A stretch of DNA of 32,708 bases from Pyrinomonadaceae bacterium (GTDB lineage: Bacteria; Acidobacteriota; Blastocatellia; Pyrinomonadales; Pyrinomonadaceae): contig JAMQPI010000402.1 in assembly GCA_023717565.1 (NCBI GenBank), positions 1 through 32,708 of the forward strand, in the 5' to 3' direction. Shown piece after piece: positions 1-5,774 of the stretch. Position 1 is the first letter of the stretch. Every line of letters starts with the position of its first letter. The position numbers and the translations under genes were made by a program. Under the pieces are notes generated by a model, which was not told the DNA's origin, did no database searches, and saw only the letters and a list, made by a program, of their open reading frames with translations.

Positions 1-136
1 CGGCGATGGCCGACCCTTGCGCATCGTTGACCGTTCCCGAAAGAGAACCGCTGGTTGTTTGAGCCGCGACTAAGATAGTCGCTGCCAATACGGCTAAGAC
101 TAACGCTAAAGCTTTCAGTAGAACCTGATATCGCAT
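1..136 (-). CDS. 5' end of a TonB-dependent-receptor-like gene (partial, cut by window edge)
   Basis: The minus strand encodes 45 codons from an ATG at 136-134 and runs off the left edge. The start is supported by a GGAGG ribosome binding site at 147-143, six bases before the ATG. The product begins with two basic residues among the first eight (R2, K8) and a hydrophobic segment (residues 5-24) ending near Ala-Ala-Gln, a typical signal peptide. It continues with TSGSLSGTVNDAQGSAIA, which matches the beginning of the carboxypeptidase-regulatory-like domain that opens many acidobacterial TonB-dependent outer-membrane receptors. The barrel itself lies outside the window, so the receptor assignment is inferred from the signal peptide plus this short motif. 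Other secreted proteins carrying the same domain cannot be excluded. It is divergent from the genes that follow. Confidence 0.6.
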   Translation of the reverse strand, partial: MRYQVLLKALALVLAVLAATILVAAQTTSGSLSGTVNDAQGSAIA

Positions 137-252
137 TAGATTCCTCCATTCTTAAGGTGCGGTTGGTTTCTGATTCTCATTTCCCAGCGCCGCTAAACCA
201 GGCGCCTGGGCAAGAGAACTTGAGCGTTGCAAACCCCTTATTGCCTTGCCCC

Positions 253-278
253 GCATCGAAAGATTTTTCGATGCTTTT
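253..278 (+). terminator. Rho-independent-terminator-like hairpin
   Basis: GCATCGAAA (253-261) and TTTCGATGC (266-274) form a perfect 9-bp stem around the loop GATT, followed directly by TTTTGTT. The T-run implies plus-strand transcription, yet no plus-strand gene precedes it in the window. It sits about 120 bp upstream of the minus-strand receptor-like start. It could end a short plus-strand RNA, act as a boundary for antisense transcription, or be a structure in the receptor leader. Confidence 0.4.
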
Positions 279-809
279 GTTGCTGGTACGAACTAATACT
301 GCGTAAATTCGCATATGAGGACATAGTTCGACCGATGGCAGCCAGAGTGCTACCTTAAACCTAACCTGGCGACGAATGCTCCCAAGCCTTCAGCCGCCCT
401 AAGATAAATAAGACTTTTGTTGAGATAAACTTGATTCTAAGACGAATAATGAATAAGCAAGCAACATGCCGAAATCTGTTGAGAGCCGCTAAAGATTTTC
501 CCATCCTCACTTACATTGTTCATTCGTCGAACAAAAGGTGATCAGGATTGGAAAAAATGGACGAAGCTACGAAGATTTGGGAATTGGTTTGAATTGGTAA
601 AGCAGTATTACCGAGAAGGTGGGAGGTTCGGTTTGAGCTAGTCCGGCACAAGAACCTTGGTGATACCTGCTACCGCTGTAACGAATATGTCGAACCATCG
701 TTGAGACATGGCACGCCTAGTTGTCGATGAGGTTGCAGTTAAAAAGTCTTGGACGTTTAGAGCTTGAATGGTACTCTGTCTCACTCTTACGGTAAGGGAG
801 CGGAATTTA

Positions 810-853
810 TTCGGGACCATGAGGTCGGAGGTTTGAAACCTCGCCCCGACGAA
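810..853 (+). pseudogene. Degenerate 3' half of a tRNA-Pro (anticodon-loop to 3' end)
   Basis: From 810 the sequence reads as an anticodon loop TTCGGGA (CGG anticodon, proline), then GAGGTC, then a T-arm GGAGG-TTTGAAA-CCTC, then an acceptor-like GCCCCG plus A and CGA. This is the order seen in bacterial tRNA-Pro. Upstream of the loop the bases ATTTA (805-809) cannot pair with the 3' anticodon stem CCATG. No D-arm or complementary acceptor strand (CGGGGC) is present, so homology starts at the anticodon loop. The TTC of the T-loop is TTT and the end is CGA rather than CCA, so it is not a working tRNA. Such 3' fragments are classically left as attachment sites by tyrosine-recombinase elements, but no integrase is in view. 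Confidence 0.55.
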
Positions 854-1052
854 TTACTCGATTCGAAACTTTCCTTCCAGTAGGACAGCTTAGCTTGCGA
901 GGGCGTTCCCCTAACGCGACGCAAGACAGAAGAAGCTTCGTATCCTGAACAAACAGGAGCTTGAACCTACAAGTGACGGCCCCATCGTCATGGCAAAGAA
1001 CAAGTCTTAACTCACGTAAAACAGATCATCACTGCCCCAAAGGAGAACTCAG

Positions 1053-1781
1053 ATGGAACGAAGGATTGCGGGCCTGACTCTTGTTGTCTTATTGCTCACC
1101 GTCTTGGCGCCGAAGTGTCTCGGGCAGAAGAGCGCGGCTCAAGTCGTCAAACAACAATCGAGTTACACGTTGTCTTTGGAACTGGAGTTCTCGAAAAAAA
1201 ATCGCAATAACCTGCAGCGGGCCATGTCTCTCCTGCTTGCCCTTGGACCTAATGGCCATGCAACTGGATTCCTTGTTGGTGACGGACTCGTGATGACTGC
1301 GTATCACGTGGTTTCCGGAGAGTTAAGTGATTCGAAAAAGATCGCATTGGGTTTCAGTCCAAAAGATCAACTGCAGGTCAAGGTGTTTGTAAATGGTTGC
1401 CAGGCGACTGTGCTGAGAGTGGATAAGGAAGCCGATTTGGCGCTGCTGGAAATATGTGGTTCCCGCAAACTCGTTAAAACGCCTTCTTTTCAGGGGACTC
1501 CCGCCAAGGACGAGCGTCTCCTCTTAATAGCCAGGCCACATGGGGACAAGACCGTCAGCCAGGGAACTTTCTACGGTTCATACACTTTCCGCGGACAAGA
1601 GTTCTTATCGGCGCGAATTGAGGGCCGGGATGGCTATTCCGGTAGCCCAATCTATAATCAGAAGGCGGAAGTCATCGGAGTTTTTAGTGGTTATGACTGG
1701 TCCCAAAAACTTGCGTTGATAAGTCCCGGCACAAAGGCCCAAAAACTTCTCGCAGATCACATCTCAAGTCCCAAACCTTGA
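1053..1781 (+). CDS. Exported trypsin-like (S1-fold) serine protease, 242 aa
   Basis: Residues 1-25 form a signal peptide (MERR, then a hydrophobic core ending near CLGQ). The mature part is a compact trypsin-2/HtrA-like protease domain. The catalytic triad is readable as His85 in TAYHVVSG, Asp128 in EADLALLE and Ser196 in GYSGSP, in the expected order and spacing. No PDZ domain follows, so it is shorter than DegP/HtrA proteins and consists of the catalytic domain alone. Two cysteines (116 and 135) could form a disulfide. The start is supported by AAGGAGA at 1040-1046, seven bases upstream. It stands alone: the next gene begins 275 bp away behind its own putative promoter. The likely role is hydrolysis of peptides in the periplasm or outside the cell; the substrate is unknown. 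Confidence 0.8.
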   Translation: MERRIAGLTLVVLLLTVLAPKCLGQKSAAQVVKQQSSYTLSLELEFSKKNRNNLQRAMSLLLALGPNGHATGFLVGDGLVMTAYHVVSGELSDSKKIALGFSPKDQLQVKVFVNGCQATVLRVDKEADLALLEICGSRKLVKTPSFQGTPAKDERLLLIARPHGDKTVSQGTFYGSYTFRGQEFLSARIEGRDGYSGSPIYNQKAEVIGVFSGYDWSQKLALISPGTKAQKLLADHISSPKP

Positions 1782-1925
1782 GAAGCTGACAGCCCGCCCC
1801 ATCCCAATACTCCGATCTTCCCGACTGTAGCCTAAGGTTAACAGCGCCGAATCCCTTATTTTTTACGCTAGTTCAGTTCCTCAGATCTTTTTTCAGCTTT
1901 ATGCCAACTTATTCCGTCTAAGGTG

Positions 1926-1956
1926 TTGACTCAGGGGATGCTCAACATGGTATATT
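1926..1956 (+). promoter_or_regulatory. Putative sigma-70-type promoter with extended -10
   Basis: TTGACT (1926-1931) and TATATT (1951-1956) are separated by 19 bp. The -10 is preceded by TG at 1948-1949, giving an extended -10 that could compensate for the long spacer. Transcription would start near 1963, about 94 bases before the DUF1800 gene, and would cover the DUF1800-DUF1501 pair up to the terminator at 5775-5809. Confidence 0.4.
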
Positions 1957-2056
1957 GCGTTTAACCTGGTGATGGCTAGGCGGCCCCGACAAGAGTCAGC
2001 GACCTCTCACGTTTTTCAGTCCACGCAGATGATTTGGTTGTCGGAGAGCCACCTAT

Positions 2057-4345
2057 ATGAGAAACAGTCTCCCGCGATTGACGCCCAAGCGGTGTCTTAA
2101 ACTCGCCTTCCTTGTTGCGCAAATTCTTCTTCTGATTGGCATCACCGGTGGTTCAACCACCCTCCAGGCCGCAACAACCAGGCCGCCGACGTTGTTAAGC
2201 GGACCTACTTCCACCCGAGCAATAGCGTTCGAATCAGTCTCGATGAAAGCCGAGCCCTTCCCGGTGACGGCCTCCGTCGCATTTAGCACTGACACGCGGA
2301 CCCGGATAGCCATTTTCGCGATGAATCTGGATTTTCTGGGTGCTTATGGGTTGGGTGCTGCTCCCGAAGCAACTACTGCTCTTACCGCCGACGCACAGGA
2401 TTCCGCGGGCAAGGTCTATTCGCTGAGGATCGAGCACGTAGGTCAGGTGCCAGGCTTCCCGGGCATCACCATGATCATCGTGCGACTGGCTGATGACATG
2501 GGAGATGTTGGCGACGTACTCCTAAACCTGAATCTGCACGGCACGTCCAGCAATCGAGTTAGGGTTGCGATTGGTCATATGGGAGGCGGACCACCAGACG
2601 ACATCGGAGCCGTGGCCACACCTGCTCCAGTAACCCCGCCGCCGCCGGATGTGCCGCTGGTTCCGGAGACCTACCTTGGTCCGGCAAGTAGTGATGCCGA
2701 CACCGTGCGTTTTCTCGAACAGGCATCATGGGGTCCGACAGCCGCCGAAGTTACTCGCGTCAGGGCCATGGGCTTCCGAGCTTACCTTGACGAGCAATTC
2801 AACCTTCCTCCGCTCAACGTCCCGAAGGGTTCGAACTTTCCGGACATGGCATTCCTGGTTGATGACCAGGGCACGGCGTGTCCCGCCACTATGCCAACAG
2901 ACCCGACTTATGTTCAGGCAGACTGCAATCGTGACAATTTTTCGATGTACCAGATTCATCGAAACTACTACACGAACGCTCTCTACGGTCCCGATCAGTT
3001 GCGGCAGCGTGTGGCTTGGGCCTTACACCAGATCCTGGTCGTGTCCGGGCGCGATATTACGGTCCCGAGTCGCTTGACGGTTTATCTTCAGGCGCTAGAC
3101 CGAGGAGCCTTCGGAAACTATCGGACTCTCTTAAACGAGATTACGTTGAATCCGGCAATGGGCGAGTACCTCGACATGCGCTTAAGCAGGCGAACGGATC
3201 CAAACGAGAACTTCGCTCGCGAAATCCTGCAGCTCTTCTCGATCGGAACGGTCGAGTTGAACCTCGATGGCACTTCCAAGCTCGACGCCCAGGGCAGTCC
3301 CATCGCCTCTTACAATCAGACAACTGTTAACGAGTTCACACGGGTCTTCACTGGTTGGAACTTTGCCGCAGTTATCGCCGCTGGGACCACCAACTTCCGC
3401 GATCCGATGATCCCGCGTGGAGGCACTAACCACGACTTTAACCCGAAGACTCTATTAAACGGCTTAGTGACCCCTCAATGCGCGGGCACGAGCGGAGCGG
3501 TGAACGTAGCCTGCGCTCAGGCAGACATGACCATCGCTCTCGATAACATCTTCAACCATCCCAACGTTGGGCCCTTTGTTGGGAAGCAGATGATTCAGCA
3601 TCTGGTGACGAGCAATCCAACTCCACCTTACGTGGCGCGGGTAGCGCGGGTGTTCAACAACGATTGTGATGCTCTTTACCCGCAAGGTTGTACCGGCGTG
3701 CGTGGCAACATGCGAGCAGTGGTGCAAGCCATCCTGCTCGATCCGGAAGCCCGCGGTGATGTGAAGACCGATCCGAACTTCGGAAAACTGCGAGAGCCGG
3801 CTCAGTACGTCAACAACATCCTGCGCGCGAATAACGTGAAGTCATTTGACAGGACGACTACGAGCGACGGAGTGCTGGGCAGCCGTTCTTCGAGCGATTT
3901 CACTAACACGTTGGATCAGGGCATTTTCCTGCCGCCGACTGTCTTTAGTTACTTCCAGCCCGGTTACGAAATTCCGGGTCTGAAGATACTGGGTCCGGCG
4001 TTTGGAATTCTCTCGACGTCGACCACGTTGCGGCGAGCTAACGCAGTCAACACTCTCGTTTACAGTGGTGTGAACGTGACGACTGCTCCCAACACAGACC
4101 GTCCCCGAGGAACCTCACTCGACCTAACAAACCTGGAAACAATCGCTAATGCCGATCCCGGAGGAGTTGCTGATCAGCTCAATGCGTTAATGCTGCATGG
4201 GACGATGTCCACGCAGATGCGCACATCGCTGGTTACCGCAATGAGCGCCATCAACGACGCCGATACGGCGCTGCGCGCGCGCAAACGAGCACGGACAGCG
4301 GTTTACCTGGTAGCAACTTCGTCACAGTTCGACATACAGAGATAA
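2057..4345 (+). CDS. DUF1800 domain-containing exported protein, 762 aa
   Basis: An N-terminal hydrophobic segment (about residues 14-40) is a likely signal peptide. Residues 50-175 form a beta-rich module with the phrases RTRIAIF, DVGDVL and SSNRVRVAIGH, a type I associate with acidobacterial secreted proteins but cannot name. After a proline-rich linker (185-205), residues 215-762 carry the DUF1800 domain, opening with FLEQASWGPTAAEV and containing QRVAWALHQI, the conserved ANFAREILQLFSIG-like segment (here ENFAREILQLFSIG), FTGWNF and LREPAQYV. The molecular function of DUF1800 is unknown. These proteins are characteristically encoded next to DUF1501 proteins, as here, where only five bases separate the two genes. 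GGAG at 2043-2046 is the likely ribosome binding site. Confidence 0.88.
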   Translation: MRNSLPRLTPKRCLKLAFLVAQILLLIGITGGSTTLQAATTRPPTLLSGPTSTRAIAFESVSMKAEPFPVTASVAFSTDTRTRIAIFAMNLDFLGAYGLGAAPEATTALTADAQDSAGKVYSLRIEHVGQVPGFPGITMIIVRLADDMGDVGDVLLNLNLHGTSSNRVRVAIGHMGGGPPDDIGAVATPAPVTPPPPDVPLVPETYLGPASSDADTVRFLEQASWGPTAAEVTRVRAMGFRAYLDEQFNLPPLNVPKGSNFPDMAFLVDDQGTACPATMPTDPTYVQADCNRDNFSMYQIHRNYYTNALYGPDQLRQRVAWALHQILVVSGRDITVPSRLTVYLQALDRGAFGNYRTLLNEITLNPAMGEYLDMRLSRRTDPNENFAREILQLFSIGTVELNLDGTSKLDAQGSPIASYNQTTVNEFTRVFTGWNFAAVIAAGTTNFRDPMIPRGGTNHDFNPKTLLNGLVTPQCAGTSGAVNVACAQADMTIALDNIFNHPNVGPFVGKQMIQHLVTSNPTPPYVARVARVFNNDCDALYPQGCTGVRGNMRAVVQAILLDPEARGDVKTDPNFGKLREPAQYVNNILRANNVKSFDRTTTSDGVLGSRSSSDFTNTLDQGIFLPPTVFSYFQPGYEIPGLKILGPAFGILSTSTTLRRANAVNTLVYSGVNVTTAPNTDRPRGTSLDLTNLETIANADPGGVADQLNALMLHGTMSTQMRTSLVTAMSAINDADTALRARKRARTAVYLVATSSQFDIQR

Positions 4346-5745: not shown

Positions 5746-5774
5746 CGGCCGATGTTCTTTAACGCTTAGAAATG

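Follow-up and report, generated by a model that had tools for sequence, protein, structure and literature searches.

A likely decayed tRNA-Pro attachment-site scar beside an exported-protein gene cluster in a Pyrinomonadaceae genome

The window analyzed here is an entire contig (C29, 32,708 bp) of a metagenome-assembled Pyrinomonadaceae genome of 6.9 Mb. Near its left end, the gap at 137–1052 contains no open reading frame of 80 amino acids or more, in keeping with the otherwise empty 0.9-kb interval of the preliminary description, and within this gap lies a partial tRNA with its flanking sequences (Table 1). A trypsin-like peptidase gene follows, the first of a cluster encoding exported proteins. 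Further right, positions 5772–32706 encode six consecutive very large exported proteins with Calx-beta and DUF4214 in their C-terminal parts, and these parts are strongly similar to each other.

Table 1. Features at the left end of the window and the basis on which each was delimited
Feature	Position	Strand	Role or basis
Non-coding interval left of the arm	138–742	.	Side of the putative lost element; relatives search
Putative element-derived arm, class B end, motif TGGTACTCTGT...GGTAAGG	743–809	+	SH2 similarity starts at 743
Decayed tRNA-Pro(CGG) 3′ half, tRNA positions 33–77	810–852	+	Probable attachment-site core (displaced tDNA fragment); BLAST, direct alignment
Right flank of the scar and region upstream of the trypsin-like gene	853–1052	+	Common to SH2
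Trypsin-like peptidase gene, first of the exported-protein cluster, apparently outside the element	1053–1781	+	

Read directly against positions 33–77 of the tRNA-Pro(CGG) in the same genome, the sequence at 810–852 (TTCGGGACCATGAGGTCGGAGGTTTGAAACCTCGCCCCGACGA) is identical at 39 of 43 bases and differs by four substitutions and one 2-base deletion. The reference gene, located by ARAGORN at C562:7294–7370 on the minus strand, is the only intact tRNA-Pro(CGG) of the genome. In a BLAST search of the whole genome the half was recovered at E = 3.9e-8 (2.5e-8 with a longer query), was present as a single free copy, and was surpassed only by this gene and by tRNA-Pro(TGG) on contig C588. Its local alignment score to tRNA-Pro was 66, whereas none of 200 shuffles scored above 31. 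These results bear out the earlier reading of a tRNA-Pro 3′ half running from the anticodon loop to the 3′ end, with the feature retained and its right boundary corrected from 853 to 852. Like a displaced tDNA fragment of the Islander type, the fragment begins at a known crossover subsite and extends to the tRNA 3′ terminus.

The preliminary description named a covariance-model search giving no tRNA similarity as one result that would refute its reading. An Rfam search of window positions 1–2400 indeed returned no match at E ≤ 10, but as a control the same search also missed all five free 45-nt halves of a tandem array in another genome (L066/L067), which are 95.6–100% identical to the tRNA. 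The lack of a match is therefore uninformative here, and covariance-model negatives in general say nothing about half tRNAs.

The 5′ half, likewise described as missing, was undetectable in the 60 nt upstream of the fragment, either in the window (p = 0.18) or in its ortholog in the relative SH2 (p = 0.57; 500 dinucleotide shuffles for each). These values bear on the alternative that a whole tRNA-Pro(CGG), for example a duplicate, once stood here and lost its 5′ half by random deletion, with no integrase involved. In its favor, the half and its flanking genes share a strand, the genome has just one intact tRNA-Pro(CGG), and upstream of the half a weak alignment resembling a D-arm can be made in the window. 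However, that upstream alignment is not significant in either genome, the break is at tRNA position 33, as it is in integrase-linked halves, and the upstream DNA resembles element ends, so we regard a random deletion as highly improbable.

The nearest named relatives are the Pyrinomonadaceae metagenome-assembled genomes SH2 (G012) and MGR_bin51 (G008). When window positions 138–1052 were compared with 97 genomes, our own included, only SH2 aligned at length beyond the half itself, at 72% over 743–1052. The orthologous SH2 locus, on contig C539 (JAMQPH010000536.1), agrees with the window in arm, half, right flank and the genes that follow. The trypsin-like protein is 91% identical in amino acids between the two, and collinearity extends rightwards from 743 to about 17,900, that is, over about 17 kb. 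Left of the arm, the SH2 DNA is unrelated to the window and, by open reading frame, encodes cupin, methyltransferase and sigma-factor-like genes; the methyltransferase had no match in our genome at E ≤ 1e-60. In the window itself, 138–742 had no convincing relative among the 97 genomes, with one 33-bp match at E = 0.004.

Because SH2 was assembled independently and carries the same junction, and because the genome-wide E value is so low, chance similarity or an assembly artefact has a probability close to nil. The lack of a covariance-model match and the 735 contigs of the assembly could be cited for it, but near-perfect halves are missed by that search as well. For the half this explanation is refuted already; a mis-join left of 743 could still exist. 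The half is identical at 38 of 45 positions between window and SH2, compared with 53/64, 65/90 and 80/94 in flanking segments. It is thus no better conserved than its flanks, as would be expected for a neutral relic, and no function is proposed.

We further surveyed 19 other trypsin-like loci, examining up to 1.5 kb of upstream sequence. The half was present at one, in SH2, and absent from 18. A candidate at the G048 locus was rejected, its alignment of 36 points falling within its own shuffle range. Among the congeneric loci examined, a trypsin gene beside a DUF1800 gene was seen only in the window, SH2 and MGR_bin51, with no DUF1800 near five other congeneric trypsin loci, and a protein-based scan of genome contigs returned three loci only. 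In MGR_bin51 the upstream DNA is alignable only from window position 1042.

We then considered the distribution of such halves by searching tRNA-Pro(CGG) in 59 genomes and our own. Among the matches listed, at least 25 free 3′ halves occur in at least 12 of 16 congeneric genomes, or at least 24 in at least 11 of 15 when our own is set aside. By genome, again among the matches listed, six were found in SH2, five in G015, three in G006, two each in G001 and G011, and one each in G002, G003, G004, G005, G009, G010 and our own. Most of the listed halves start at tRNA position 28–33, and the junction of the window half at position 33 is at the same place as in halves linked to integrases. The only 5′-only match listed in the genus (G006:C264:1–52) lies at a contig edge. 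At seven places (L066, L067, L070, L072, L073, L075 and L076), an integrase open reading frame ends at a distance of 10–90 bp from the 3′ terminus of a tRNA-Pro gene or half.

Several of these loci preserve more extended structures. In G015 (C5:379394–412275; L066, L067), a 33-kb stretch holds five free halves in tandem, and an integrase frame lies 10 bp from two of them; the elements are of about 3–14 kb and have exported-type cargo. A second tandem array, of three halves, is present on SH2 contig C649. Cargo of the array elements includes subtilase, kelch/galactose-oxidase-like and kinase-PD40 proteins. In G004 (C30:74845–82819; L083), an intact tRNA-Pro(CGG) is followed 7.9 kb downstream by a 3′ half, and the interval encodes a patatin/DUF3376 protein and a 698-aa protein, with no integrase found between. 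In G029, of another genus (C2; L095:4308–14118), a tRNA-Pro and a half flank 9.7 kb of DNA that encodes integrase, AAA_25 and tape-measure proteins; this is likely an integrated element broadly similar in kind to the free form described below.

The left flanks of the halves were compared in 29 rows, comprising the 25 halves above, one further weak half from G011, and G058 and G029 (twice) from other genera. They form two recurrent classes of element end, alike within but not between classes, with a few flanks in neither. The sequence directly 5′ of the window half falls in class B. By right-anchored alignment against a null of 3000 random 50-mers, the window arm matched the G010:C352 end better than all random pieces, and p was 0.003 and 0.009 against two G006 ends. 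Most class B ends were matched by the SH2 arm, with p ≤ 0.001 for G010, G006:C274, G006:C130 and G012:C649c. All these p values, like those given below for the IMG/VR arm, are somewhat optimistic, the classes having been grouped after the data were seen.

A free form of such an element was found in IMG/VR, where the half pattern occurs in one contig only, at both ends of the 16,029-bp record IMGVR_UViG_3300017791_000386 (L123, L124). Its ends are a 141-bp terminal direct repeat made up of a class B arm and a perfect half, so the contig looks circular and fits a circle opened at attP; it is probably a 15.9-kb circular phage-like element. It encodes a tyrosine integrase (phrog_1) together with primase/helicase-like, tape-measure, large and small terminase, and ligase-like proteins. 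Among the loci compared, its integrase is closest to the one beside tRNA-Pro(CGG) in MGR_bin51 (E = 2.1e-134). No capsid or portal match was found among the 10 open reading frames scanned, and the element may therefore be a satellite. The SH2 arm matched the attP arm of this circle (p = 0.001–0.002), whereas the window arm did not reach significance (p = 0.24), so the link between window and circle runs through the SH2 ortholog and the G010 and G006 ends.

Taken together, the half, the element-type arm and the recurrence of the same half near integrases in the genus give good support to the earlier suggestion of an att-site scar. We conclude that 810–852 is very probably the decayed attachment-site scar of a long-lost phage-like element that had inserted in a tRNA-Pro gene. 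A temperate phage-like integrative element with a tyrosine integrase would have carried the tRNA-Pro(CGG) 3′ half in its attP and entered a tRNA-Pro(CGG) site by recombination in the region of the anticodon loop. The distal junction of the element, of attR type, would read element arm (743–809), displaced tRNA 3′ half (810–852), chromosome. Since the order of arm and then half is common to attR and attP, the lost element is placed to the left of 810. That element would later have been deleted or replaced, leaving a mutated half and about 67 bp of element-end sequence. No element gene was found in what remains: integrase remnants sought by tblastn in window positions 1–1052 gave a best E of 0.010, judged to be chance, the 10 proteins of the IMG/VR element that were searched had no match in the window, and integrase, primase, terminase and tape-measure genes such as class B elements carry were likewise not found there. 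The window locus is at most a relic of a class B element, not a member of the class.

With the element on the left, the chromosome side would hold the exported-protein cluster, its trypsin-like gene included, and the cluster therefore appears to lie outside the lost element. This gives no support to the preliminary description's suggestion that the cluster or an older island may have been bounded here; the cluster is on the far side from the element, in the stretch collinear with SH2. The integrase and second att copy that were to be sought nearby are both missing from the contig, which begins 809 bp left of the half and so covers little of the element side: a PF00589 search of C29 found no integrase, and no second tRNA-Pro half was detected. 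As DUF4214 exported proteins are moreover dispersed through the genome (46 matches), these observations do not mark the cluster as an island.

The tandem arrays and their exported-type cargo, with the trypsin–DUF1800 pairing confined to three genomes among the congeneric loci examined, could be taken to favor another arrangement, in which the cluster forms the left portion of an older element, from a former array, that lost its integrase, with the half as the internal junction between it and a lost element to the left. However, in several arrays an integrase frame lies about 10 bp from internal halves whereas 853–1052 has no integrase remnant, no second half or integrase occurs in the window or, among the matches listed, elsewhere on SH2 contig C539, and the DUF4214 proteins are spread genome-wide; we consider this arrangement unlikely. 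A broader conjecture, that exported-protein clusters were spread through Pyrinomonadaceae by an ancient array of tRNA-Pro elements to which the scar belonged, the cluster being a domesticated, integrase-less element moved by recombination between att halves, appears quite unlikely.

The decayed-scar reading also requires an account of where the scar now stands. The intact tRNA-Pro(CGG) that the preliminary description had proposed for comparison is on contig C562. The first 86 bp of its right flank match, at 88%, the right flank of a half on SH2 contig C59, which suggests that the C562 flank is probably native and the site empty in this genome. That flank differs from the right flank in the window, and window positions 855–1052 compared with 23 right flanks of tRNA-Pro genes, halves or attP gave nothing beyond shuffles. 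Because neither this nor any other native flank tested aligns, the scar is placed away from the native locus, outside the simple textbook position. It must have been moved by rearrangement, have come from a broken-up array, or be an attP that arrived by another route.

In our preferred account, the scar and the native tRNA-Pro(CGG) locus would later have been parted by a rearrangement. Were the scar instead an attP, a circle with the order arm, half and left end would have arrived by another route and lost everything except its attP region. The distance from the native locus and the arm–half order, which the IMG/VR circle shares, are compatible with this, but 853–1052 is unalignable to the left end of the IMG/VR element and carries no integrase trace, and we hold the attP origin to be improbable.

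Other signs of integration were seen elsewhere in the genome. An N-terminal integrase piece (C562:1660–1962; L007) shares its contig with the intact tRNA-Pro(CGG) and is related to the integron-type integrases of SH2 contigs C59 and C649. Contigs C252, C670 and C125 hold further integrases or pieces beside tRNAs or weak tRNA matches, and so represent other occupied or decayed tRNA sites. Contigs C100 (L137) and C518 (L138) each carry 13 tRNA genes of various anticodons, grouped in short arrays; they may represent a mobile tRNA array or a phage contig that was binned with the genome.

Phage-like elements are well known to insert into tRNA genes, and the scar would be an ordinary instance of this. 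As a single decayed att site it matters little in itself; it points to tRNA-Pro as a frequent integration site, with tandem arrays and a probable phage-like circle built on the same core, in a little-studied soil acidobacterial family. A literature search on tRNA-Pro or mobile elements in Acidobacteria or Pyrinomonadaceae yielded, judged from its listings, nothing that looked related.

A close counterpart is the SH2 scar, which agrees with the window from the arm through the downstream genes. It differs in the unrelated DNA left of the arm and in a half that is less decayed internally (37 of 39 bases identical to tRNA-Pro, closer than the window copy). The IMG/VR circle has a class B arm and the same tRNA-Pro 3′ half as its attP core but is an intact element, whereas in the window nothing is left beyond the arm and a mutated half; it shares a tyrosine integrase with the locus beside tRNA-Pro(CGG) in MGR_bin51. 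In the excerpted parts of the Islander study (PMC4383910), damaged fragments and tandem arrays are known, with only four arrays of three or more listed. Relative to the islands in those excerpts, the island at our locus would be gone, no integrase is left, and the fragment and the intact tRNA are on different contigs. The same excerpts describe class A islands with an anticodon-centred crossover site and a displaced 3′ tDNA fragment, and the window fragment, which starts at the anticodon loop, points to the same kind of crossover site.
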